From a virus, in the IMG/VR virus record IMGVR_UViG_3300017697_000027, positions 1-44,033 of that record: a stretch of 44,033 nucleotides of DNA, one strand, 5' to 3'. Below the pieces are notes generated by a model. It was not told where the DNA came from and searched no databases. It saw only the letters and a list, made by a program, of their open reading frames with translations. Of this stretch, positions 1-35,993 are shown one piece after another. Made by a program: the position numbers and the translations under genes. The first letter of the stretch is position 1; every line of letters begins with the position of its first letter.

Positions 1-1689
1 TGCTAATTGATCTATCAACTCTGCTCTTTGATCTTCAATAGAATCAGGCTTCATCCATTCGGGTAACATAGAAGTAAGTGAAGCTTTGATCTCTGCAAAT
101 GATGGCAAGAAATCAAATAGATCGGTAAAGAATGATTTTACTTTTTCAATAGTAGAATCAAACAGTTGTTGGATTACACCCTTATCTTCTTCACCAGAAG
201 ACCAACTAAACATTCCAGTGAACCATTCTTTAGTTGCGGTCCATTTACCTTTTACGAAATCAGTAAGGTTAGTCCATCCTTCAGATAATCCTTCAGATGC
301 CCAAGAGAAAAGACCTGTAAACCACTCTTTTACAGCAGTAAATTTAGAAGATGCAAAGTCTTTTAAGTTAGTCCAACCCTCAGTTGCAAGTTCTGCTCCA
401 AATGTAAGTTTTTCTAAGAACCAATTTTTTACATCTACAAATGCATTTGGAATAAATGTTGATAGCGACCAAGATCCATCTTCACCAGTACCAGCTTCAG
501 ATCCCCATGTGAATAGACCTACAATCCAATCTTTTGCGGAAGTAAAAGCATCTTTTACTAGTGTTGAAAGTTTAAATGGTTCTTCTGGATTTCCCCAGCC
601 AAATAGACCTTGGATCCAAGCAATTGCTTTATCGATTGGAGAATAGATTATATCAATTAATCCACCTTCACCAACTAAGCCATTCCATGCTTGTTGTAAT
701 GCCGCGACTGGATCTGTGAATAAAGTTTTGACCCAATCAATAGCTCCTTCAACTACATCAAAAATCGCTGTAAATATTTTATCGATTTGTTCTGAGAATG
801 AGAACGCTTCTAGTGTAGCTTTAGCATCTTCAAATCCAAGTTTGCCTAATACAAATGCTACACCGTCTTTTATAAGATCCAACGGCCAAGCAATTAATGT
901 GTCAAATGCAGATTTTAATCCTTCTTCTATTCCACCAAGTACTCCGCCTTCTTCATAACCCTCTACAAATCCAGTTACAAAAGAAATTAAACCAGTAATA
1001 ATTGTAAATGGTAAGAATAATTTACCAAGAACTTTTGTAAGACCGCTAAATGCTTTTACCATACTTCCAATTGTACGAATAATTGTTCCACCAAATAGAA
1101 CAGCAAATGTTCCTACAATTGCTCCAACAACACCAATATTTTCTTTTAGTAATTCGAATCCTCCAGTAAAATCTCCTTCAAAGAACATTTTAATTGAGTC
1201 AACAATAGCAAATACACCATCAATTGCAGCTCTAACACCAGCAAATAGTGTTTCAGGATCCATGAACAATAATGCTGCAGCGCCAAGACCAGCTATTAGA
1301 CCACCAGAAGGTTTCATAGCATCTAATTGTTTATCATAAGCATCTGCTAATCCATCAATACCAGATACAAGTTGAGACAAAAATTCATTTGCTTCTTCTT
1401 GGCGTCTGGCATTTTCTCGATTTTCTTCTTCAGTTCCGGCTAATCCTTGAAGTGCGTCTAATTGTTCTCGAGCTAATTCCATTTGCTCTTCATTAGACGC
1501 ACTATCAAGAGATATTTGAACTTGTGTTAAGGTTTCCCTCAATTTGGCAGAGTTCTCTGTACCACTTTTTTCTAAAGCAGTAATACTTTTATCGAGGTCA
1601 TTTAAAGAGTCTTTTTGTTTTAACTCTTTATTTTGCTCTTGAATTGTAGCGGTCAATTGCTCTAATGAGCGACCTAGATCTTCTGCCAT
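1..1689 (-). CDS. Tape-measure-like tail protein (gp29 position), partial
   Basis: The frame opens at an ATG at 1689 and stays open to the left edge, so at least 563 residues are present and the C-terminus is missing. Residues 1-120 are charged, Gln/Glu-rich and probably coiled coil. They are followed by hydrophobic stretches near residues 140-160, 205-230 and 240-265. The distal part carries about six diverged amphipathic units of about 33 residues with a Trp/Phe core (for example KEWFTGLFSW) between about 100 and 640. Tape-measure proteins set tail length, are largely helical with hydrophobic patches, and lie directly downstream of their chaperone genes. Here the upstream neighbours are gp26-like and a frameshifted short ORF, which is the expected arrangement. 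In T4 the tape measure is gp29. The identification rests on architecture and context rather than recognised residues; another large structural protein is possible. Confidence 0.7.
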   Translation of the reverse strand, partial: MAEDLGRSLEQLTATIQEQNKELKQKDSLNDLDKSITALEKSGTENSAKLRETLTQVQISLDSASNEEQMELAREQLDALQGLAGTEEENRENARRQEEANEFLSQLVSGIDGLADAYDKQLDAMKPSGGLIAGLGAAALLFMDPETLFAGVRAAIDGVFAIVDSIKMFFEGDFTGGFELLKENIGVVGAIVGTFAVLFGGTIIRTIGSMVKAFSGLTKVLGKLFLPFTIITGLISFVTGFVEGYEEGGVLGGIEEGLKSAFDTLIAWPLDLIKDGVAFVLGKLGFEDAKATLEAFSFSEQIDKIFTAIFDVVEGAIDWVKTLFTDPVAALQQAWNGLVGEGGLIDIIYSPIDKAIAWIQGLFGWGNPEEPFKLSTLVKDAFTSAKDWIVGLFTWGSEAGTGEDGSWSLSTFIPNAFVDVKNWFLEKLTFGAELATEGWTNLKDFASSKFTAVKEWFTGLFSWASEGLSEGWTNLTDFVKGKWTATKEWFTGMFSWSSGEEDKGVIQQLFDSTIEKVKSFFTDLFDFLPSFAEIKASLTSMLPEWMKPDSIEDQRAELIDQLA

Positions 1690-1694
1690 ATTGG

Positions 1695-1883
1695 TTATCC
1701 ACGCTTATTACGTTGTTTTATTCTTTCATTTTCTTCTTCAATAAACTGATTAAGTAACATAACGTAAATTTCTCTCTCCCACGGCATCATCGAGTCGAGC
1801 TCGGTTAGAGAATACTTATGGTGTTGCATTAAAGCAAAATTAGTCTTATAATAATTCTCTAATGAGTCATGTGAGAGAGCCAC
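1695..1883 (-). CDS. Short C-terminal extension ORF of the tail assembly chaperone (gp51 position)
   Basis: This encodes 62 residues, acidic/basic and predicted helical, with a PWEREIYVMLLNQF segment followed by a charged tail. Its only obvious independent start is a GTG sharing one base with the gp26-like stop codon (TAGTG). More telling, the frame is -1 relative to gp26 and is open upstream across the junction. The last gp26 codons lie on a canonical slippery heptamer, T TTT TTC, at 1892-1886. A gp26-51 fusion of about 298 residues is therefore likely, like lambda gpG/gpGT. The PWE..IY..ML pattern resembles second-frame domains of tail assembly chaperones, which recruit the tape-measure protein. 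T4 gene 51 (hub assembly catalyst, 249 aa) occupies the same place after gene 26 but is much longer, so only position is claimed. Separate GTG initiation remains possible. Confidence 0.7.
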   Translation of the reverse strand: MALSHDSLENYYKTNFALMQHHKYSLTELDSMMPWEREIYVMLLNQFIEEENERIKQRNKRG

Positions 1884-2590
1884 TAGAAAAAATTTGAAAG
1901 ACCCTCCAGGATCTGACTATTTTCAGTCTTGCAACTTGCACAATTAAATTTCACTTCATGTTTTAGTCTTGGCATATCTTCAAAATATCCGGAAATCATT
2001 TTGAATTGAGATGATGTCAAGGAATCTAAAAAGTTAATTACATCTTCAGCTTTTTCATCGTCAGTAGAGTAAACATCGTTTTCGTCGTAAATGGATTCAA
2101 TAGCACTTGCTACTGCGGCCATAGTTATTTCAGAATCTGATCCACCCTGTTTACCAAGTTGCTTTTGAATCCCTTTTACTGTTGGATATTTAAGTACCAC
2201 ACCAACCTTATCGGTCAAAGCAACCTTAGCGCTTTTCTTTACTTCACCTTGAACTTCAATGTCATCAAGGTTAATTTCTACTTCGTTTTTATGTTTACAT
2301 TCAGAACATTTTAAATTAACCTTAGTAGTTTCACCGACAGATTTGCCGCGGATCTTAAGGAAGACATATTCTAAATCAAACATAGCAAGAGTATCAACTT
2401 GAATCTTGCCTTCTGTACAACCAGCAATTACATCGCGCAAAGCACGAATCATTTGTTGCTGATCTTTTGTTTCCATAGCCATCATGAGGATTTTTTCTTC
2501 CTTCACGAGGTATGGTCTATATTCCACTACTTCACCATTGCTCGGAATTCTAAGCTCATATTTTGGTGAATCAATTCTTGGTAAAGCCAT
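1883..2590 (-). CDS. gp26: gp26-like baseplate hub / tail assembly chaperone
   Basis: This 235-residue protein belongs to the T4 gp26-type family, recognised from the N-terminal pattern ...RPYLVKEEKILMMAMET, the D...LEYVFLKIRGKSVGE segment and its place next to the tape measure. Two CxxC pairs (C95/C98 and C217/C220) could form one zinc ribbon-like site, a common feature in marine T4-like versions. In T4, gp26 acts with gp51 and gp28 in hub assembly; by position the protein is analogous to lambda gpG, the tape-measure chaperone. The ATG at 2590 follows a clear GGAG Shine-Dalgarno. The 3' end holds the slippery T TTT TTC, so two products (235 residues and a longer -1 fusion) are expected. Confidence 0.82.
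   Translation of the reverse strand: MALPRIDSPKYELRIPSNGEVVEYRPYLVKEEKILMMAMETKDQQQMIRALRDVIAGCTEGKIQVDTLAMFDLEYVFLKIRGKSVGETTKVNLKCSECKHKNEVEINLDDIEVQGEVKKSAKVALTDKVGVVLKYPTVKGIQKQLGKQGGSDSEITMAAVASAIESIYDENDVYSTDDEKAEDVINFLDSLTSSQFKMISGYFEDMPRLKHEVKFNCASCKTENSQILEGLSNFF
1886..1892 (-). promoter_or_regulatory. Candidate -1 ribosomal frameshift site T TTT TTC
   Basis: Read on the minus strand, the end of the gp26-like gene is TCA AAT TTT TTC TAG. The heptamer T TTT TTC fits X XXY YYZ exactly in the zero frame, one codon before the stop. A -1 slip continues as CTA GTG GCT CTC into the 62-residue ORF. Only a weak downstream hairpin is visible (UCUCU pairing with AGAGA about 18 nt later). Lambda-type frameshifts in tail chaperone genes often lack strong stimulators. 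Confidence 0.7.
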
Positions 2591-5487: not shown

Positions 5488-6260
5488 TGCCACACTTTTT
5501 TAAAAATTTCCCATTAACAGGTTATAAGTTTAAAAAAAATTCTGATACAACTACATTAATTGTAGATATATTTCGTCATGTAAGCGCTTATAATACAGTT
5601 GATGACGCAAATGCATACCAATATTATACAATTTTAGAAGGTGAAAGACCTGATCAAGTTTCTCAAAAATTATATGATAGCGATCAATATTTTTGGACTT
5701 TCTTTTTACTAAATGAGCATCTTGCCGAAGGCCATAACTATTGGCCAAAAGAATATAACGTTTTGCAGGATTATATTTCTTTAAAATATCCTGATAAAGT
5801 TATTTCCTCTATGCGCAATTCTGGTTATAACTCCGGAGAAAATCATTTATTATTAGATGTTTTTGAAGTTGGCGAAACTGTTCTTGGTGATGTGACTGGA
5901 TCTACGGCAGTTATTAAAGAGATAGATAGTACAAGAAATTTAATGATTGTTACTGATGTAGATGGAACTTTTGCTAGTGACACTACTTTAACTGGCCAAT
6001 CTAGTTCAGATACATTAGTAAATACAGATGTTTATAGATTTACTTTAGAAGAAGAGCATAATGCTCCTCATCATTATGAAAATTCTGATGGGCAAGAAAT
6101 TCCTAGAATTATATTTTCTGAAGATGAAACTTCTGTTTTTGAAGTAACTAATAGAGAATATGAAGAAAATAAAAATGACGAACGTATGTTTATTAGAGTA
6201 CTTCGTCGCGAGTTTATTGCCGATTTTGCTCAAGCATATAAAAAGTTAATTAATCAATGA
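5487..6260 (+). CDS. gp53: gp53 baseplate wedge protein with an inserted module
   Basis: This 257-residue protein has an N-terminal DIFRHVSAYN and a YYTILEGERPDQVSQKLYDS segment followed by QYFWTFFLLNEHLAEGHNYWP. These match T4 gp53 (196 aa), whose LysM-like core contacts gp7 and the hub and seals the wedge ring. Residues about 123-180 hold an insertion absent from T4, with the pattern FEVGETVLGDVTGSTAVIKEI and a VTDVDGTF strand. Similar small beta modules recur in the 2368-residue protein downstream. The C-terminus resumes the wedge pattern (RVLRREFIADFAQAYKKLI). It starts on a TAATG overlap with gp48 and ends on an ATGA overlap with gp27. Confidence 0.9.
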   Translation: MPHFFKNFPLTGYKFKKNSDTTTLIVDIFRHVSAYNTVDDANAYQYYTILEGERPDQVSQKLYDSDQYFWTFFLLNEHLAEGHNYWPKEYNVLQDYISLKYPDKVISSMRNSGYNSGENHLLLDVFEVGETVLGDVTGSTAVIKEIDSTRNLMIVTDVDGTFASDTTLTGQSSSDTLVNTDVYRFTLEEEHNAPHHYENSDGQEIPRIIFSEDETSVFEVTNREYEENKNDERMFIRVLRREFIADFAQAYKKLINQ

Positions 6261-8488
6261 AGCAAGCTAATTTACATCTAACTGATTTGACTACTCCAGG
6301 TAATCCTGGTGCTTTTCAAATGACGATAGTAATACATTCGTCAAATGGAAAAACAATGGATATTACTCAGCTAGTAGATACATTTGAAGTGACTGAGTCG
6401 ATTTTTCAACAAGCCATGATAGCTGAAATATCTATTGCTGATGGTACCAATTTATTTGAAGAGTTAAATATTACTGGAAACGAAAAAATTCAAGTTGGAT
6501 TGAGAAAACAATTAGAAATAAGTTCTCCTTATACTCAACTTCAATCTGATTGGTATATTCTTGATATTCCTCTTTATGCTAGACCAAAGCCAGATATTCA
6601 AGCGTATAAAATTAGATGCGTATCTGCATTTGGTCTTGTTTCTAAAATGAGAAGAGTAGAGCATATCTTAAAAGGAACCGCATCAGATATTATTAAAAGA
6701 TTATATGAAGAAATCGGCATTCCTTCAACAGAAACTCAATTACAGGATTATCACAGTTATTTAAATTCTGGTGATGTAAGAAAACTTTTAGTTGGTGACG
6801 TAAACACTGTTGGAACTATGTCTTATGTTCCAACTAAGCCAACATATTCAGATGCAATTCAACAAATGTTATCTAAGACAGCAGCTGCTAATGGATCTCC
6901 ATTTTTTGCGTATGAAACATTTATAAATGGTCAACATATATTAAATTCATATAATAATATGATTACTACTCCTCAAATAGATAATTATGTTCAAGGGTAT
7001 TTCTATAACCAAGATGCTTTGAGCGAAGATTCTTTTGAAGAAAAAAGAAAACGTATTTTAGAAATATCTTCTAATATTGGATTCTCTCCTTATAAGGGTT
7101 TTAGAGATGGGTCCTATGTAACACGTACGCACAGTGTTGATTGGGCAACAAAGCAATATCAAATACAAGACTTTAATGCATTTAGAGATTTAGATAAAAA
7201 TACTAGGATGGCACCAGATCTTGTGTTACACCCAGATTTTAGTGTTTCAGGTATTGATTACACAAATACTCCAGATAGCCATACATTGTTTTATTCTACA
7301 AATATTCAAGCTAGATCTGATAAAGGCGAAGTAAATATTCATGCGCATATGCCATATGTAGGCCCAAAGAGAAGATCTATTATTTCAAATTTATCTCAAA
7401 TTGAGCATATAGTTACTTTACACGGAGATCCAAGATTAATTCCTGGTGTTCAAATAGGTCTAGTAATTCCAAAGGCTGGATTTGCTGAATCTACAGATCC
7501 TCAGGGTATAGATGAATTATTATCTGGCCGTTATTTAATTGTATCGTCTATTCATACATTTGATAATAATGGTTACAGAACAAAGCTAAAAGTAGTTAGA
7601 GATTCTATTGATAGAGGTGGATTGCCTTCTAGATCAATTGAAGGTTCTTCAGGAACTAGATATTTTGATGAAAGCTCAGAAACCATTCCTCAAATCACGA
7701 ATGTTATTGGACAAGATCCTGAAGGTCCAGTTGGTGGATTAAATGGTGAAGCTACAGCTTCTACAATTGATATTGTTCCTGGTTATGATCTCGGAGAAGT
7801 TGATCCTGCATTAGCAGCGGCAGTAGCTAATTCTGCAACAATTGCTGGAGACATCGCGCAAAGACAATCTGATAATCCTGCTTCAGTTACTTCAGATCAA
7901 ACTGGAGCGGCAGTTGGGCTTGAAGCTCAAACAGGAGATATTGATACCAACGAACCTCCATCAGTATCTGGTGTTCAATCTGGAACTATTGTTGATGAAG
8001 ATGCTTCAGCTTCTATTACAAAAATTCTTGATGTTGGTCCTGGATATAATATCGTAAGACTTTCAAATGGAAAAGTCGTCAAAAGAGTTGGTGCAAGAAA
8101 TTGGAGAAATAATAATCCAGGAAATATTAAAGAAGGTGGATATTCTAAGAGTAAAGGTTCACTCGGTGGAGATCCATCATTCGCAATATTCCCAAGTTAT
8201 AGTGTAGGTCGACAAGCAAAATACGATTTAATTTTCTCCTCATCTTCTTATAAAGATCTAAAAATATCTGAAGCAATTACTAGATACGCACCAGCCGATG
8301 ACGGAAATAATACACAATCATATGCAAGAACCGTTATTTCTGCAGCTGCTGTTCCATCAGAAAGAGGCGGGCCAGACGCAATTATGAAAGATACTATTGA
8401 ATCAGAAAGAACTCGTATTCTTGATGCTATGGAAAAAGTTGAAGGATTTAAAGTTGGTACTGTGACAGAATTGACAGGATATGTATAA
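6257..8488 (+). CDS. gp27: gp27 baseplate hub fused to a lysozyme/transglycosylase-like domain
   Basis: This encodes 743 residues, nearly twice T4 gp27 (391). Residues 1-460 are the hub: a DITQLVDTFEVTESIFQQAMIAE-like start (residues 33-57), an LLVGDVNTVG region and a C-terminal barrel ending RYLIVSSIHTFDNNGYRTKL. gp27 trimers form the torus through which DNA passes and bind the gp5 spike. Residues about 465-595 are an Ala/Asp/Ser/Thr-rich linker. Residues about 600-735 form a separate domain beginning VGARNWRNNNPGNIKEG, with FAIFPSYSVG and a TRYAPADDGNNTQSYA segment. I recognise this combination from phage virion muramidase/lytic-transglycosylase-like domains. It would cut peptidoglycan during penetration. 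The exact chemistry is not resolved from sequence. Confidence 0.88.
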   Translation: MKQANLHLTDLTTPGNPGAFQMTIVIHSSNGKTMDITQLVDTFEVTESIFQQAMIAEISIADGTNLFEELNITGNEKIQVGLRKQLEISSPYTQLQSDWYILDIPLYARPKPDIQAYKIRCVSAFGLVSKMRRVEHILKGTASDIIKRLYEEIGIPSTETQLQDYHSYLNSGDVRKLLVGDVNTVGTMSYVPTKPTYSDAIQQMLSKTAAANGSPFFAYETFINGQHILNSYNNMITTPQIDNYVQGYFYNQDALSEDSFEEKRKRILEISSNIGFSPYKGFRDGSYVTRTHSVDWATKQYQIQDFNAFRDLDKNTRMAPDLVLHPDFSVSGIDYTNTPDSHTLFYSTNIQARSDKGEVNIHAHMPYVGPKRRSIISNLSQIEHIVTLHGDPRLIPGVQIGLVIPKAGFAESTDPQGIDELLSGRYLIVSSIHTFDNNGYRTKLKVVRDSIDRGGLPSRSIEGSSGTRYFDESSETIPQITNVIGQDPEGPVGGLNGEATASTIDIVPGYDLGEVDPALAAAVANSATIAGDIAQRQSDNPASVTSDQTGAAVGLEAQTGDIDTNEPPSVSGVQSGTIVDEDASASITKILDVGPGYNIVRLSNGKVVKRVGARNWRNNNPGNIKEGGYSKSKGSLGGDPSFAIFPSYSVGRQAKYDLIFSSSSYKDLKISEAITRYAPADDGNNTQSYARTVISAAAVPSERGGPDAIMKDTIESERTRILDAMEKVEGFKVGTVTELTGYV

Positions 8489-10596
8489 TGACTAAAAATA
8501 ATAGAGATGGATTTAGATCTACAGAATTTGTTTGGTTTACTGGTGTTGTAGAAGATAGACATGATCCATTATTACTTAATCGTGTTCGTATAAGAGCATT
8601 TGGTTATCATACAGAAAATAAAAATAGATTACCAACTGAAGAGCTCCCTTGGGCTTCAGTTCTTATGCCAACAACTTCATCGGGTACTTCTGGTGTTGGT
8701 GAGGGAACTCATGGATTAGTTGAAGGTTCATGGGTTATGGGATTTTTTAGAGATGGGCCAGATGCTCAAGACCCAGTTGTTATGGGAACTATTATGGGCG
8801 TGAATTCAACTGGTGCAGAACCTACAACTGGATTTAATGACCCATATGGAGTTTTTCCAAGAGAAGCTGGAACTGATGCTGGAGCTAGAGCTTTAGGATT
8901 AGATTATGATAGAGTAACTCCAGTTGGACCTCATGAACCACAAGATGCGTATGCATCAGAATATCCATATAATAAAGTTCGTCTTACAGAATCGGGCCAT
9001 TTAATTGAATTTGATGATACACCCGGCGCCGAAAGAATTAATATTAAACACCGTACCGGCGCTTTTATTGAATTAAGACCTGACACTTCAATGCGTACTC
9101 GTTCAAAAGAACGATTCGATGCAATGAGTCAATGGATTGTAAATATTACTGGAGATGCTACTGTTTCAGTTGGTGGTAATATGTCAACAACAGTCCAAAA
9201 GAATGCTACTGTTTCAGTTGGTGGTAATTCATACGTAGATACTAAAGGGAATTTGACCTCAAGAGTTTCTGGTGCTCATTATTCTTATGTAGAAGGATCT
9301 ACAGTTTTACAAACTCAAGGTAATATAAATGTAAAAACTACTGGTAGTTTAACTATTGATGCAGCAAGTAAAATTGATATGAGAACTGATGGGCCGTTTT
9401 CTATTACGGCGCAATCAATGGCTATTGACGTTCAAGAAGACTTATCCATTGTTGGTACAAACATGATTACAGATATGGGTGCAACTATTGTAACGCAAGT
9501 TCCAACATTTTCTCAAATCACTGACGTTAGTAGAATTGATGCGACAGAATCTTTAGATTTACACACAGTAGCTCTTACAGCAATGGGTCAAGACACAATG
9601 GATTTTGGAACTACAGCTTTAAATATAAACGCTGTAGATACGGGTTATATGAATTTTGGTTCTTTGCTAGATATATCTTCTGGATCTGAAATGAATCTTG
9701 TTACTGCTACTATGCATCTTGACGCAGATTCTGAAATGAATATTGCTGGCGCAACGACTAATATGGGTTCGTCTGGAACAACAACAATTAAATCTAGCTT
9801 CTTAGATTTGAACCCTGGAGGAACAATGTCGCCATTCTCTCCTGATGGAGCTCCAGAATCTCCTGATGATCCATTAGTTCCTGCACCAACAGACCCAAAT
9901 GCGTTACCTCAAATTGGATACGATAGATTAGAATCTGCGCCATTCAAAGTTGAAATTGACGAAGTTGATACTGATATATCGTTTCCAACTCCAAAATATA
10001 CTGTTATTACACCAAAGGGTGTCGCGTCATATTCTCAACAAATAAGAAATTTACAATCCAAAGGTACATCTGGAATTTCTGGATGGAACGGCGCGAATGT
10101 TAGTGCTATAACTGATGGCAGTATTGAAGAAGCTGTTGATGGTAAAGTAATATATTCTGATGATACTGGGATGAACGTAGCATACGCTAATGCCAACGCG
10201 ACTAGAAATAAAGTAATTGTTCCAGAACTTGAAAATATATTAATTCAAGCAGCAAAAAATACCGGTCTTTCAGTAAGAATATTCTCTGGCGGAATGACTC
10301 CATATCGTAGAGTTGGAACTGATAGACACTTAAATGGTTATGCAGCTGACGTTTGGTTATATAATTCAGAGGGAAAACAATTAACTGTTAATCATCAGGA
10401 TTTTAGGGATTTTGCTCAAGCAGCTAAAAATGCCGGTGCTACTGGAATCGGGGCCGGTGTTGGTTATATGGCCGCAGTTGGTTTACATGTTGATATATCT
10501 GCTGGAAATACTATCCCGGCAGATTCAATTACATATTGGGGAGCTGGCGGACGAAAACCAAATGCCCCTCAATGGTTAATTAATGTAATGTCATAG
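8488..10596 (+). CDS. gp5: gp5-like central spike with C-terminal M15 peptidase domain
   Basis: This encodes 702 residues. Residues about 12-110 are the gp5 OB-fold (FTGVVEDRHDPLLLNRVRIRAFG-type start, PWASVLMPT, VEGSWVMGFF). Residues about 165-440 are Gly/Thr/Ser-rich short strands (GDATVSVGGN, KNATVSVGGN), the triple beta-helix needle. T4's lysozyme domain between these parts is absent. Instead, after a Pro-rich linker, residues about 575-702 resemble zinc peptidases of family M15: RHLNGYAAD gives H614 and D621 in the H-x6-D spacing, and GLHVD gives H667. Such enzymes cleave peptide stems of peptidoglycan. The ligand pattern is intact, so the domain is probably active. It starts on a TAATG overlap with gp27 and is followed by the PAAR tip gene. 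Confidence 0.88.
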   Translation: MTKNNRDGFRSTEFVWFTGVVEDRHDPLLLNRVRIRAFGYHTENKNRLPTEELPWASVLMPTTSSGTSGVGEGTHGLVEGSWVMGFFRDGPDAQDPVVMGTIMGVNSTGAEPTTGFNDPYGVFPREAGTDAGARALGLDYDRVTPVGPHEPQDAYASEYPYNKVRLTESGHLIEFDDTPGAERINIKHRTGAFIELRPDTSMRTRSKERFDAMSQWIVNITGDATVSVGGNMSTTVQKNATVSVGGNSYVDTKGNLTSRVSGAHYSYVEGSTVLQTQGNINVKTTGSLTIDAASKIDMRTDGPFSITAQSMAIDVQEDLSIVGTNMITDMGATIVTQVPTFSQITDVSRIDATESLDLHTVALTAMGQDTMDFGTTALNINAVDTGYMNFGSLLDISSGSEMNLVTATMHLDADSEMNIAGATTNMGSSGTTTIKSSFLDLNPGGTMSPFSPDGAPESPDDPLVPAPTDPNALPQIGYDRLESAPFKVEIDEVDTDISFPTPKYTVITPKGVASYSQQIRNLQSKGTSGISGWNGANVSAITDGSIEEAVDGKVIYSDDTGMNVAYANANATRNKVIVPELENILIQAAKNTGLSVRIFSGGMTPYRRVGTDRHLNGYAADVWLYNSEGKQLTVNHQDFRDFAQAAKNAGATGIGAGVGYMAAVGLHVDISAGNTIPADSITYWGAGGRKPNAPQWLINVMS

Positions 10597-30907: not shown

Positions 30908-32680
30908 ATGAAAATTTTAGCAGTTAATCCCGGACATAATGGTTCGGCCGCATATTTAGTTGATGGAAAAACCGAATTTTATATTGAAGAAGAAAGACTT
31001 TCTAGAGCAAAATACGATGGAAATCCTTTTAGAGGTATATTAGAAGCAATTCAAGGTGGTGTAGATTTTCTTGTGATTGGAGGTACTCACGACCAACCAA
31101 AATTAACTTGGACTGGCGAAGATGCTTTTACTGCTTTAGTTAGAAAGTTTAATTCTAATGTAAGAGTTATTTCATTATCACAAGCTCACCATTTAGGACA
31201 TGCTGCAGGCTCGTTCTTTAATTCTGGATTTAAAGACGCTGTAGCTCTAGTTATTGATGGGGCAGGATCTCGTCATGAGTTTCAAGCAGACGAAGATGGA
31301 CGATCTACGTATGGATTTGAAACTGAGTCTATTTTTGATTGTGATTCTGAAAAAAATGGAGAAGAAGAAGAAGTCGTAAAAGAAATATGGAAATCCTATG
31401 GCGGAAATTATGATGTAGTTCCATTAAAAACCGATAATATGAATATTGATAATTCAATGACTCTAGTAAAGATGTATGAAGGAGTTTCAGATTATCTGGG
31501 TTTTGGATATATTGAAGCTGGTAAAACGATGGGTCTTGCGCCGTACGGTAAAGAAGATGAAAATATTCCCGATTTAGTAATCAATGGTAGAGGTAATAGA
31601 AATGTCTTTATTCCGAATTACCCTGCTGGATCAACAATTGATGAGAGTAATAATCCATATTTAGCTAGAAATGAAGATCCAAAGTTATGGCATAAAGATC
31701 CAGAAAAAGTTACAGAGCAGGCAAAAAATCTTGCTTGGAAAATTCAAAAGCAAACACAAGAAGCAGTGGCTGATTTAATTGAAAAAGCTGTACAATTGAC
31801 AAATAAAACTAATATTGTTATTTCTGGTGGGTATGGGTTAAATTGCGTAGCAAATTATTATTATAAAAGTAGATTTCCAGATCTAAATATCTTTGTAGAT
31901 CCAATTTCTCATGACGGCGGAACAGCTCTTGGTCTAGCGAAACTCGCGTATTATAAATTGACTCAAGGGCAAATTCCAGATTCTTTAGAAACTTTATATC
32001 TTGGAACATTTAAATTATCAGAAATTGACGAGCAAACATTAGAAAATATTTCCAATGCTGAATTTGAAATAAAAAGAGAAGTATTAAATTCTGAAATTGC
32101 CCAAATGATTGCTGATGGTAATATCATTTCTATTTTTCAAGGAAGATCTGAAGCTGGGCCTAGAGCACTAGGTAATAGATCGATACTATATGATCCTCGC
32201 GATATCAATGGTAAAGACCATGTAAATACCGTAAAGGGTAGAGAATGGTTTAGGCCTTTTGCAGGATCTATGTTACAAGAAGATTTTGAAGAATGGTTCG
32301 AAACTCGTGGATTAACTGAAACACCGCATATGATGTACGCTATGGATTTTAAATTAGAAAAGCATGGCGAAGTTCCAGCTATTACTCATGTTGATGGGAC
32401 GTGTCGTATACAAACTGTAACAGAAGAGCAGAATGAAAATTATTATAACTTAATTAAAGCGTTTAAGGATATTACAGGTGTCCCTATTTTATTCAATACA
32501 AGTTTTAATTTAGCTGGAGAGCCTTTGGTTGAAACTTTAGATGATGCTCTTATGACAATTGCAAATTCTGATATTGAATACTTATATTTACCTGAGTGGT
32601 CGGTCTTAATTAAAGCTCCATTCAATTATAACCAACAGATTGAAGAATCTGAACAACAGATTGAAGAATCTGAAGAATAA
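30908..32680 (+). CDS. NodU/CmcH-type O-carbamoyltransferase
   Basis: This encodes 590 residues, the usual family size. The N-terminal ASKHA half begins MKILAVNPGHNGSAAYL with the metal-binding HHLGHAAGSFFNSGF (residues 94-108) and VALVIDGAGSRHEF. The C-terminal YrdC-like half shows the invariant GRSEAGPRALGNRSILYDPR (about 412-431) and FNTSFNLAGEPLV. These enzymes make carbamoyl-adenylate from carbamoyl phosphate and ATP and transfer the carbamoyl group to a sugar hydroxyl. In Pseudomonas aeruginosa a family member (WapO) carbamoylates inner-core heptose, which fits the heptose genes beside it. The C-terminus ends in a duplicated QQIEESE. It converges on the hldD gene with a shared terminator between. 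Confidence 0.92.
   Translation: MKILAVNPGHNGSAAYLVDGKTEFYIEEERLSRAKYDGNPFRGILEAIQGGVDFLVIGGTHDQPKLTWTGEDAFTALVRKFNSNVRVISLSQAHHLGHAAGSFFNSGFKDAVALVIDGAGSRHEFQADEDGRSTYGFETESIFDCDSEKNGEEEEVVKEIWKSYGGNYDVVPLKTDNMNIDNSMTLVKMYEGVSDYLGFGYIEAGKTMGLAPYGKEDENIPDLVINGRGNRNVFIPNYPAGSTIDESNNPYLARNEDPKLWHKDPEKVTEQAKNLAWKIQKQTQEAVADLIEKAVQLTNKTNIVISGGYGLNCVANYYYKSRFPDLNIFVDPISHDGGTALGLAKLAYYKLTQGQIPDSLETLYLGTFKLSEIDEQTLENISNAEFEIKREVLNSEIAQMIADGNIISIFQGRSEAGPRALGNRSILYDPRDINGKDHVNTVKGREWFRPFAGSMLQEDFEEWFETRGLTETPHMMYAMDFKLEKHGEVPAITHVDGTCRIQTVTEEQNENYYNLIKAFKDITGVPILFNTSFNLAGEPLVETLDDALMTIANSDIEYLYLPEWSVLIKAPFNYNQQIEESEQQIEESEE
32633..32674 (+). repeat. 21-base tandem duplication at the carbamoyltransferase C-terminus
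   Basis: Two perfect 21-base copies (32633-32653 and 32654-32674) encode QQIEESE twice. After the stop, seven further in-frame codons with a similar Glu-rich reading reach a second TAA at 32699-32701. The tail therefore seems to have grown and then been cut short. Confidence 0.8.
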
Positions 32681-32723
32681 TTCTTTGAAGCTGAAGAATA
32701 AACTAGCAATTAAAAAAACTTAA

Positions 32724-32745
32724 GGGGCCATATGGCCCCTTTTTT
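32724..32745. terminator. Bidirectional terminator between convergent operons
   Basis: GGGGCCATATGGCCCC is a perfect palindrome followed by six T on the plus strand; on the minus strand a run of seven T (32712-32718) follows. It ends the carbamoyltransferase transcript. The minus-strand operon's last stop codon lies at 32744-32746, just before it. Confidence 0.9.
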
Positions 32746-33655
32746 ACATACTGTTACTTATATAATCCTGAACTCTTCTCATTCTTATTGGATTCCCAAT
32801 AGTTGTAAGTTTTTCTGTATTAGCTTGAGTAAATTCTTGATAATGATCTTTTAAATGATTCGGAAAAGGTATTGTTTCGATTTCAGCTCCGACTTTACGA
32901 GCAATCATTTGAGCAACATCCATAAATGATATTGCGTCTCCTGTACCAGCATTAAAGATACCAGAAACCTTTCTATTTAGCATTTCAATTTTTAGAAGTG
33001 CAATATCTTCAGCACAAACAAAATCGCGTCTAAAGTTTTCAGATCCTTCAAATACCTTTATTTTGCCTGTTTCTCTTGCTTGTTTTGAAAATTGAGTAAT
33101 AGGTGATGCTTGACCATCTTTATGATCTTCACCTTGCCCATAAACATTAAAGTATCTCCATCCTTGTATAATATATGGAGAATTTTGATACCACTCTGTA
33201 TTCACTAATTTTTCGATTTTTCGGTCAAATAACATTTTAGAATATGCGTACATATTCATTGGATCTAATGGGCCATTTTCTGTAAAATGTAATGTTCCGC
33301 CATATACTGAAGCTGATGAAGCATAAGAAAATGGAATTTTATGTTCAATAGCTTTTGCTAAAAGTTTATCAGAAAAGAAATAGTTAGAATCCATTACTTT
33401 TTTACCATCCCATTCTGTTGTAGATGAAATGGCGCCTTCATGATAAATAGCAGTTACTTTATCCCATAGATTTTCAGCATGTTCAAAAAATGTATCTTTA
33501 TCAAAGTATTCTTCGAATTCGCAATCTACTAAATTTTTATATTTTCTTCCATCAGTTAAATCATCAACGACAAAAATATTTTTTTTGCCTCTTTTGTTTA
33601 AATTACGAATAATGTTTGATCCTATAAAGCCGAATCCGCCAGTGACTAAAATCAT
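32744..33655 (-). CDS. hldD: ADP-glyceromanno-heptose 6-epimerase
   Basis: This 303-residue extended SDR protein compares with about 310 for bacterial HldD (RfaD). It has the Rossmann motif GGFGFIG (6-12), FVVDDLTDGRKYKNL, the EGAISSTTEWDGKKVMDSN segment characteristic of HldD, SSASVYG (113-119), the YAYSK pair Y136/K140, and RYFNVYG. It epimerises C6 of ADP-D-glycero-D-manno-heptose to the L,D form, the last step before transfer to LPS. It is the last gene of a five-gene operon and overlaps gmhB by four bases (ATGA). All catalytic residues I can place are present. Confidence 0.93.
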   Translation of the reverse strand: MILVTGGFGFIGSNIIRNLNKRGKKNIFVVDDLTDGRKYKNLVDCEFEEYFDKDTFFEHAENLWDKVTAIYHEGAISSTTEWDGKKVMDSNYFFSDKLLAKAIEHKIPFSYASSASVYGGTLHFTENGPLDPMNMYAYSKMLFDRKIEKLVNTEWYQNSPYIIQGWRYFNVYGQGEDHKDGQASPITQFSKQARETGKIKVFEGSENFRRDFVCAEDIALLKIEMLNRKVSGIFNAGTGDAISFMDVAQMIARKVGAEIETIPFPNHLKDHYQEFTQANTEKLTTIGNPIRMRRVQDYISNSM

Positions 33656-34398
33656 TTAAGTGCCTTAGCAAAATCTAATAATGAATTGAATGTTGATGTT
33701 TTCTTACGAATTTTTTCCGCTGAGAATTTTTTAAGTGCTTGTTCTGTTTCTTCACCATGACCTGTACGAACAAGAATTGGTTTTGCACCAATTTTATATG
33801 CAGCTTTCAAATCAGTTATTTTATCACCAACATAAAATCCGCCTTGCTTGAATCTGATCTTGTTTTCAAAAATTTCTTCTTCAGCGCGGTGAAACATTCC
33901 AAGATTTGGTTTTGCGTAATAATCTTCTTTTAAAGATGTTTCTGAATAAAACAATCCATCAATTGAAAAGATTCCTGCTTTGCCAAATACTTCCATCATA
34001 TGTTGATTTACAGCTTCTACTTGTTCATGAGTTTGCAATCCTTTAATAATTCCACCTTGATTTGTTAGAATCACGACCTTATAGCCTTTTAATCGAATTA
34101 TGCGAATTGCTTCTAAAGATCCAGGAATTGGCTCCCATTGCTGTGGGCTTGTGATATATTCGCCGCGGTCAATATTAATTACGCCATCTCTATCAAGTCC
34201 AATAATTGCCTTTGGAAATACTTTAGGCCATGATTTTTGCATTTCCATAATTTTAGCTTCTTCGGCACTCATTCCCATCTGAGGCTGATTAGGAGTCGAA
34301 GATGTATATTGTCCCGAAGAATAACTATAATTTTGCTGTGGTTGTTGTGCTGTTGTTGATTGTGGATCTATATCAGCAACATGCTTAAATCTACTCAT
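33652..34398 (-). CDS. gmhB: D-glycero-D-manno-heptose-1,7-bisphosphate 7-phosphatase-like, lacking zinc ligands
   Basis: This encodes 248 residues. Residues 1-60 are a Gln/Ser/Tyr-rich extension not found in standard GmhB (about 190 aa). The HAD phosphatase core follows: GLDRDGVINIDRGEY (nucleophile D69, acid D71), TNQGGIIKG (motif II), and KPNLGM with GGFYVGDKITDLKAAYKIG (motifs III/IV). It should remove the 7-phosphate after the kinase step. The zinc loop of E. coli GmhB (C-x-H ... C-x-C) is replaced by SETSLKEDYYAKPN with no cysteine, so metal binding there is lost or the specificity may differ. A histidinol-phosphatase-like HAD is the alternative, but the neighbours favour heptose. ATGA overlaps link it to both neighbours. 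Confidence 0.85.
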   Translation of the reverse strand: MSRFKHVADIDPQSTTAQQPQQNYSYSSGQYTSSTPNQPQMGMSAEEAKIMEMQKSWPKVFPKAIIGLDRDGVINIDRGEYITSPQQWEPIPGSLEAIRIIRLKGYKVVILTNQGGIIKGLQTHEQVEAVNQHMMEVFGKAGIFSIDGLFYSETSLKEDYYAKPNLGMFHRAEEEIFENKIRFKQGGFYVGDKITDLKAAYKIGAKPILVRTGHGEETEQALKKFSAEKIRKKTSTFNSLLDFAKALK

Positions 34399-34751
34399 TT
34401 TTGAGAATCACCCTTCATAACTCGATAATTGTCTTCTACTGAATCTGCTGTTGATACTTCGATTAGCGTTCCTGTCATAATACAATAAACTTTATGAGGA
34501 AGTAGAGGTGGATTGTGCCAAGTATCTCCAGCATTTAATTCTTTTTTATGAAGACTAGCGTCTTTAGTATCAATCCATTCTACCACAAATTTTCCATCCA
34601 TAACATACCATGTTTCATCTTTTTCACGATGAAAATGCATAGAAAACTGAGCACCTTCATTAAACTTTAGAAATTTACCACAATACTTATCATTAGTAGC
34701 CCAGATAAGTTCATGTCCCCATCCCTTTTCAACAAATCCGTCAAGTCTCAT
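34395..34751 (-). CDS. Cupin-domain sugar-phosphate-type protein
   Basis: This encodes 118 residues from the ATG at 34751, which has AGAGG 8 bases upstream; an in-frame TTG 15 bases earlier is less likely. It is a single cupin barrel: FSMHFHREKDETWYVMDG gives H39, H41 and E46, and AGDTWHNPPLLPHKV supplies the second-motif His. The WGHELIWATNDKYCGKFL start resembles cupin halves of type II mannose-6-phosphate isomerases and related sugar enzymes. It overlaps the adenylyltransferase gene by 11 bases and gmhB by 4, so it is made together with the heptose enzymes. Its reaction is unknown; isomerase, epimerase or binding roles are all possible. Confidence 0.8.
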   Translation of the reverse strand: MRLDGFVEKGWGHELIWATNDKYCGKFLKFNEGAQFSMHFHREKDETWYVMDGKFVVEWIDTKDASLHKKELNAGDTWHNPPLLPHKVYCIMTGTLIEVSTADSVEDNYRVMKGDSQK

Positions 34752-35142
34752 TGTGTATCCTCTCAATTATTTTAGTAGTCGAATAACCATTTTTATATGG
34801 TAATATATATGTAGTTTTTGCAATATCAAATCCAACAATTTTTCTGGGGTCCGAGTAGTCCCCACCTTTAGTTAGAATATCAGGTTCTATTTCTTTAATC
34901 AATTGATATGGAGTATCTTCATAGAAAATAATCACTTCATCTACGCACATTAACGATTCAAGCATAAATTTACGATCATTTTCGTTATTTACTGGCCTAG
35001 ATTCTCCCTTTAGTCTTTTTACAGATTCGTCAGAATTTAAACCAACAATAAGATAGTCTCCAAACGATTTAGATTCTTCTAAATACTCTATATGGCCTCG
35101 ATGTAAAATATCAAAGCAGCCATTAGTAAATACTATTTTCAT
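34741..35142 (-). CDS. hldC: D-glycero-beta-D-manno-heptose 1-phosphate adenylyltransferase
   Basis: This 133-residue protein has the cytidylyltransferase-like fold: VFTNGCFDILHRGHIEYLEE with the GxFDxxHxGH nucleotide-binding motif (residues 8-17), VGLNSDESVKRLKGESRPVN, and ILTKGGDYSDPRKIVG. This matches the C-terminal half of HldE (RfaE), which activates heptose-1-phosphate to ADP-heptose. In E. coli kinase and adenylyltransferase are fused; here they are two genes overlapping by four bases (ATGA), as in split HldA/HldC systems. The typical metal and substrate residues I can place are intact. Confidence 0.92.
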   Translation of the reverse strand: MKIVFTNGCFDILHRGHIEYLEESKSFGDYLIVGLNSDESVKRLKGESRPVNNENDRKFMLESLMCVDEVIIFYEDTPYQLIKEIEPDILTKGGDYSDPRKIVGFDIAKTTYILPYKNGYSTTKIIERIHNET

Positions 35143-35993
35143 AAAATATCCTTTGGATGTATTACATATGTTCCTTGCTTTGAAATAGCTTTTGCGGCTC
35201 CTTTATTAGCTAAAATAAGAGATTCCTCTATATCATACCCGTTATCTAGTCCATAAGCTAATATAGCGCCAAATGTATCTCCAGCACCAGTTACGTCATA
35301 AACGCTTTTAGCTTGAGTTGGAATATGCACTTGACCTTCTTCAGATACCCATAATACTCCATCAGCGGCAAGAGTAATAATTAAATGATCTACTTCTAAT
35401 TTTTCTCTTACTTTGATTGCTTTATACTTAATACCTTTTATGCAATCGGATGTTCCAGCATAATCTTCAAATTCTTTTCTATTTGGTTTCAAAATCCATG
35501 AATACTTGTAATTATCTAAGCTTACTTTTGGATCAACTATTACTCTCTGGTTTTTATGTCTTAAATAGTCAATTAAAGGTTTTGGTTTTTTTAAAGACCC
35601 TTTGTTATAATCAGATAAAAAGAAAATATCATTCTTTTTAAATTTATGACTAAACAATTTATTATTTAAATCGTTATTATCCATATATTCTTCGTTATCA
35701 ATACGAGTGATATAATGATTACCAGATAAAATACGAATTTTTACTGGCATTCTTTTTGTAGAAACTAAATTAGAAGTATCTGAAAAATGCGAAAGATATT
35801 CATCTTGAACTAGGCCAAATAAGTTTACTTTTTTGGTAAGAGATCTTATATTAGCATAAACATTTGATGCACCGCCAAGTGCAATATGTTTTTCTAATAA
35901 TTCTACAATTGGAACTGGAGCTTCTGGAGATAAACGTGTTGTTTTTCCGTGCCAATATTCGTCAATAATTATGTCTCCAAGTACATTTATCAT
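35139..35993 (-). CDS. hldA: D-glycero-beta-D-manno-heptose 7-phosphate kinase
   Basis: This 284-residue PfkB-family kinase corresponds to the N-terminal half of HldE. The start VLGDIIIDEYWHGKTTRLSP followed by EAPVPIVEL is the RfaE-type signature. GGASNVYANI (40-49), KPNRKEFEDYAG and the PfkB motif DVTGAGDTFGA (233-243, containing the catalytic Asp) follow. It phosphorylates C1 of heptose-7-phosphate. It is the first gene of the minus-strand operon, with AGGAAG upstream of the ATG and a late promoter box at 36046-36039. It is shorter than typical N-terminal HldE halves (about 315), but the core motifs are complete. Confidence 0.92.
   Translation of the reverse strand: MINVLGDIIIDEYWHGKTTRLSPEAPVPIVELLEKHIALGGASNVYANIRSLTKKVNLFGLVQDEYLSHFSDTSNLVSTKRMPVKIRILSGNHYITRIDNEEYMDNNDLNNKLFSHKFKKNDIFFLSDYNKGSLKKPKPLIDYLRHKNQRVIVDPKVSLDNYKYSWILKPNRKEFEDYAGTSDCIKGIKYKAIKVREKLEVDHLIITLAADGVLWVSEEGQVHIPTQAKSVYDVTGAGDTFGAILAYGLDNGYDIEESLILANKGAAKAISKQGTYVIHPKDIL

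Follow-up and report, generated by a model that had tools for sequence, protein, structure and literature searches.

A gp26-like gene of a marine-type T4 relative probably yields two tail assembly chaperones by programmed −1 ribosomal frameshifting

INTRODUCTION

Conserved G/GT-type frameshifts were reportedly described by Xu, Hendrix and Duda; the trick is already known for many long-tailed phages and, within the T4-like group, has already been reported in parts. Vladimirov, Gautam and Davidson (Virology 2022) are said to have identified gp26/gp51-type genes as the T4-like tail assembly chaperones, with an abstract that reportedly describes frameshifting as conserved in several T4-like groups and T4 as using genes 26 and 51. 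In a 2016 review, G/GT-type frameshifts are described as a widely conserved trait of long-tailed phages, T4 being the exception (PMC5009743). The 2022 identification is cited in passages of two papers, one of which states there that some T4-like phages, in place of frameshifting, have a short gene alongside a longer, fused one (PMC10885494), and the other that poly-T frameshift signals are known in T4-like TAC-N genes (PMC12846349).

T4 requires gp51 although the particle does not contain it, and hub assembly chaperone is the role listed for gp26 (PMC3004832). Sullivan et al. (2010) described the gp51 of cyanophages and marine vibriophages as being without about the first 200 residues (PMC3037559), and the annotators of KVP40 had already recorded a similarity of a small ORF to the gp51 C-terminus. 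Here we analyze a 44-kb IMG/VR virus record (IMGVR_UViG_3300017697_000027, positions 1 to 44,033; the whole stretch is called the window below), for which a preliminary description had proposed that a programmed −1 frameshift fuses a gp26-like ORF to an ORF in gp51 position, linking T4 hub catalysts to the G/GT chaperone class. From the comparisons below we consider it very probable that one gene gives rise to two tail assembly chaperones of the G/GT type by programmed −1 ribosomal frameshifting, the long form being the equivalent of full-length T4 gp51.

RESULTS

Layout of the chaperone locus

All parts of the locus lie on the minus strand. A phage collection search found no close isolated relative of this phage, and the gp26-like product is ~40% identical to the gp26 of isolated phages; the source phage is a marine-type T4 relative whose chaperone locus is new and divergent. 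The gp26-like ORF (1883..2590, 235 aa), which would encode the short tail assembly chaperone (TAC-N, the analogue of lambda gpG), matches PF12322 T4_baseplate (9.8e-63) and phrog_150 (2.7e-66), and its score of 212 bits against a curated cut-off of 24.5 for the PF12322 model places it in that family. Its 3' end reads TCA AAT TTT TTC TAG, so that a slippery heptamer, T_TTT_TTC (1886..1892), stands in zero-frame register and abuts the TAG stop that ends the short product (1883..1885), exactly as first described.

The −1 frame is likewise open through the junction. Read from the heptamer, it gives FFLVALSHDSLENYYKTNFALMQHHKYSLTELDSMMPWEREIYVMLLNQFIEEENERIKQRNKRG (FFLVALSHDS..., open from 1892 to 1695), a segment of 65 codons from FF that, with its stop, occupies 1695..1892 and would add 63 residues after the slip. 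This segment matches phrog_634, ‘baseplate hub assembly catalyst’ (5.1e-31), as well as the C-terminus of phrog_150, and by these matches it is the C-terminal domain of the predicted long chaperone (TAC-C, the analogue of lambda T and of the T4 gp51 C-terminus). The predicted frameshift product (1695..2590) is 298 aa long. Both parts that define the gp51 family, PF12322 and the C-terminal segment, are thus present, and only a frameshift would join them into a single chain.

The next gene (1..1689, running past the window edge) encodes a tape-measure-like protein, the presumed client of the chaperones (phrog_58 tail length tape measure, 1.6e-15), which confirms the position ahead of the tape measure; a short form and a C-terminally extended predicted long form are therefore encoded directly 5' of the tape measure, as in G/GT-type systems. 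The upstream neighbours encode a tail-tube-like protein (gp54 position), a gp2-like DNA end protector and a gp4-like head closure protein, and a comparable gene order is found in Pelagibacter phage Mosig and Aeromonas phage AsFcp_2.

Elsewhere in the window, we observe a gp5-like protein (8488-10596, plus strand) with OB and trimerisation domains and no lysozyme domain by Pfam, and a gp27-position protein (6257-8488) with an endolysin family match (phrog_873) near its C-terminus. At 30908-35993, within the structural region, a carbamoyltransferase gene (30908-32680) lies beside a minus-strand group that includes nucleotide-sugar epimerase and heptose adenylyltransferase-like genes.

The slippery heptamer is invariant in phase across relatives

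We gathered 160 viral contig loci, of which 158 hold both parts, giving 159 sequences with the window. In all of these (159/159), the second part lies in the −1 frame and a T_TTT_TTN heptamer is present in the same codon phase, bearing out the conservation predicted for aligned relatives. When sequences resembling one another by 80% or more across the final 62 codons were dropped, 76 non-redundant sequences remained, with the heptamer TTTTTTC in 46, TTTTTTT in 20 and TTTTTTA in 10. The T run starts at codon position 3 in every one (76/76). Phe is encoded by TTT at the heptamer in 76/76, compared with 541/736 elsewhere in these genes (P ~7e-11), and a T-ending codon precedes the Phe TTT at the heptamer more often than expected (P ~2e-17, 76 non-redundant sequences); these values are conditional on amino acids and codon usage and treat 76 related sequences as independent, so they are not strict probabilities. 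In a gp26-anchored search, all 20 non-redundant sequences also carry the heptamer in register, indicating that the other search query, which starts at the slip, did not select for the heptamer. The conservation of the heptamer is not due to chance.

Among named phages, T6 is present at the gp26 end in KVP40, phiM7, Cr30, Rhizobium phages, P-SSM2, S-WAM1, Mosig, Milchi, YB07 and AsFcp_2, and the first seven of these names also share the layout of the window; KVP40, phiM7, Cr30, the Rhizobium phages, Milchi, YB07 and AsFcp_2 belong outside the T4 group. The T6 heptamer is absent from the gp26 3' end in Escherichia phage CBA120 and Vibrio phage K452, the phages checked from the Ackermannviridae and some Vibrio relatives, which have gp26 homologues without T6.

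Translation of the −1 segment and alternative readings

The small ORF could instead be a separate gene, translated by coupling at a stop-overlapping GTG or from an internal ATG (the LMQHH ATG). The window does contain such an overlap, since the only nearby start-like codon of the −1 ORF is a GTG whose first G is also the last letter of the stop (TAGTG); a free gp51 is annotated in many relatives, and phages often have SD sequences close to the ends of genes (PMC5009743). However, the GTG lies 19 nt past the GGAGG core described below, too far for normal initiation, and 55/76 relatives have no ATG, GTG or TTG in the open −1 stretch, counted from the stop that precedes it up to the eighth codon after the slip; that the ORF lacks a good start had been noted. 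Furthermore, the −1-frame segment shows a pN/pS of 0.13-0.16 in the −1 frame only, and in the stretch that runs from the slip to the ATG of LMQHH, the first one conserved, the −1 frame has a pN/pS of 0.16 versus 1.23 and 3.16 for the others, which argues that the −1 reading of this stretch is translated into protein. The 17 codons 5' of the LMQHH ATG are thus under purifying selection in the −1 frame, and no SD was found ahead of this ATG. A separate gene would also leave the invariant T6 in one codon phase unexplained. The absent starts, the −1-frame selection and the lack of an SD at the LMQHH ATG lead us to reject an independent start of the second ORF as improbable, and the missing starts together with −1-frame coding make entry from gp26 the sole conserved way into the segment.

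The frames could also be joined by RNA polymerase rather than by the ribosome, given that a T run exists and that bacterial polymerases slip on long A/T runs, but the runs here comprise only 6 T's in 56/76 sequences, 7 in 12 and 8 in 8, while the literature describes such slippage at runs of 9 (PMC5009743). Polymerase slippage would need neither the fixed codon phase nor the upstream SD-like element, and from run length and phase we regard it as very unlikely. That the junction reflects a sequencing error or a decaying gene has nothing in its favour beyond the window being a single contig; the identical arrangement in 158 more loci and many isolated phages refutes it, and its probability is negligible.

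A Shine-Dalgarno-like element and folding around the heptamer

With respect to possible stimulators, a GGAGGG sequence (1902..1907) lies 9 nt 5' of the heptamer, or 10 nt when measured from its GGAGG core, and window 8-mers over it pair with the anti-SD at −9.8 kcal/mol. The family shows one sharp peak of 16S anti-SD pairing, at 8-mers starting 15 nt before the heptamer, with a mean of −6.6 kcal/mol against an upstream background of 0.34 (SD 0.79) kcal/mol; −4 kcal/mol or lower is reached by 88% of sequences at the peak versus 2% in the background. A conserved Glu/Arg-Gly accounts for part of this signal, but codon choice exceeds what the amino acids need: the GAG codon is used in 33/45 cases at the site versus a 27% background (P = 8e-11) and GGG in 14/76 versus 4% (P = 4e-6), and the mean best anti-SD energy is −6.7 versus −4.9 (SD 0.15) under synonymous recoding. 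In dnaX of E. coli, the spacing from SD to heptamer is 10 nt. The GGAGG is a putative frameshift stimulator placed as in dnaX, in which the 5' SD is a major stimulator of the −1 frameshift (PMC5009743). It may be a new detail for these genes, as a limited literature search found no description of it for them, although the 2022 paper by Vladimirov et al. may contain one.

Downstream of the heptamer, folding across the family reaches a mean z of −1.72 at +13, compared with about −0.15 upstream, and relative to synonymous recoding it is −1.44 at +12 and +0.21 at +72. RNAalifold on the 76 sequences found no consensus pairs, which speaks against one conserved 3' stem-loop despite the local enrichment, and 60-nt stretches 3' of the heptamer in the window show no significant folding (z of −0.3 to −1.5). 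Strong hairpins are predicted in some relatives (loci L005, z −4.2, and L013, z −3.3). Enriched folding energy without consensus pairs implies that any 3' structure is lineage-specific, and we regard the putative structure as such, with the window as an unproven case.

Relation to T4 genes 26 and 51

T4 genes 26 (208 aa) and 51 (249 aa) are separate and lie back to back on opposite strands. T4 gp51 carries PF12322 over residues 1-201 (4e-52), followed by a C-terminal segment, and it is with residues 202-244 that the −1 segment aligns (hhalign E = 1.3e-4); T4 gp26 is PF12322 alone, and the −1 segment finds no match in it. As T4 gp51 consists of a gp26-type domain plus the C-terminal segment, the frameshift product would correspond to the whole of gp51 and the unshifted product to gp26. 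On this homology, T4 encodes the short and the long form as two genes. The match of the small ORF to gp51, suggested earlier from position, is thereby upheld, limited to the C-terminal part and not the whole gene. Likewise, the contrast that had been drawn with T4, whose genes 26 and 51 are indeed separate and divergently oriented, stands and is explained by the gp26-type domain within T4 gp51.

Gene 26 of the T4 group, which no −1 ORF follows, serves as a control. In gene 26 of T4, Moon and Kpn6N, the EFF residues are kept and coded TTC TTT, and the heptamer is missing in 7/7 annotated T4-group phages checked. Retention of the ORF after the heptamer is lost had been named as an outcome that would count against the fusion; it occurs only where the ORF became part of a standalone gp51 gene.

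Other arrangements are also observed. In Enterobacter phage EC-F2 (locus L191, 1501-2794), the short and long forms are organized in a third way: a full-length gp51-like gene has immediately behind it, in the same orientation, a gp26-like gene whose PF12322 match is confined to the later portion of the domain. In Campylobacter phage CJLB-14 (locus L180, 937-1677), a single 246-aa ORF combines PF12322 with a region that weakly matches the C-terminal segment of gp51.

DISCUSSION

Our results support the notion that a marine-type T4 relative probably makes two versions of a tail helper from one gene. The proposed programmed frameshift and gp26-51 fusion find comparative support in the heptamer, the pN/pS of 0.16 and the missing starts, alongside the SD-like element and the homology to gp26 and gp51. 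Most ribosomes would terminate at the TAG, giving the gp26-like short form of 235 aa. A minority, in which tRNAs occupy TTT TTC in the P and A sites while the SD-like GGAGG ~10 nt upstream restrains the ribosome, would slip one base back to TTT TTT, and translation would go on in the −1 frame via CTA GTG GCT... to the 298-aa long form. By analogy with lambda G/GT, many short and few long copies may coat the tape-measure protein made from the next gene, the C-terminal segment may recruit tail-tube subunits, and both forms would depart before the tail is complete. Slip efficiency, the short-to-long ratio and chaperone action are what we infer for this locus. In E. coli, U_UUU_UUA and U_UUU_UUU are much less slippery than A_AAA_AAG in a list without U_UUU_UUC (PMC5009743), so the efficiency of frameshifting could be low, though a G/GT system needs little.

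Searching PDB sequences yielded no meaningful remote match to either part, and the G/GT link thus rests on position, architecture and published work. The link holds comparatively and is not new, having been published in 2022; insofar as that work is represented in the passages citing it (PMC10885494, PMC12846349), the window agrees with it. This supports the view, already published, that the factors assembling the T4 hub are chaperones of the G/GT type. Our comparisons also indicate that the ‘reduced’ gp51 annotated in cyanophages and marine vibriophages (PMC3037559) does not represent a truncation, gp26 providing the N-terminal part through the frameshift, and the loci provide a large natural set of sites for the study of SD-stimulated −1 frameshifting. 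For the whole marine T4-like group, we see about an even chance that frameshifting is driven by a built-in SD stimulator at dnaX-like spacing, with lineage-specific hairpins added downstream that tune the short-to-long ratio in each lineage, and that the T4 group later replaced this by giving each form a gene of its own, losing the heptamer.

Compared with known systems, the locus resembles T4 in the homology of its short and predicted long products to gp26 and gp51, and differs from it in that T4 has two divergently oriented genes without a frameshift, with TTC TTT replacing the heptamer. It shares its protein families, the order before the tape measure and, as far as the relevant passage describes it, the poly-T signal (PMC12846349) with the T4-like gp26/gp51 chaperones of 2022, from which it is set apart by its divergent sequence. 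As in lambda gpG/gpGT, the −1 frameshift, here a predicted one, is placed near the end of the short chaperone gene, the long form is C-terminally extended and the tape measure comes next; lambda has another heptamer, whereas zinc-ribbon-like cysteines (gp26 family) and an SD-like stimulator are found here. Like E. coli dnaX, the locus has an SD-like element ~10 nt 5' of a homopolymeric heptamer (SD: PMC5009743), but here the run is of T rather than A, no clear 3' stem is seen in the window, and the shift would give the long rather than the short product.
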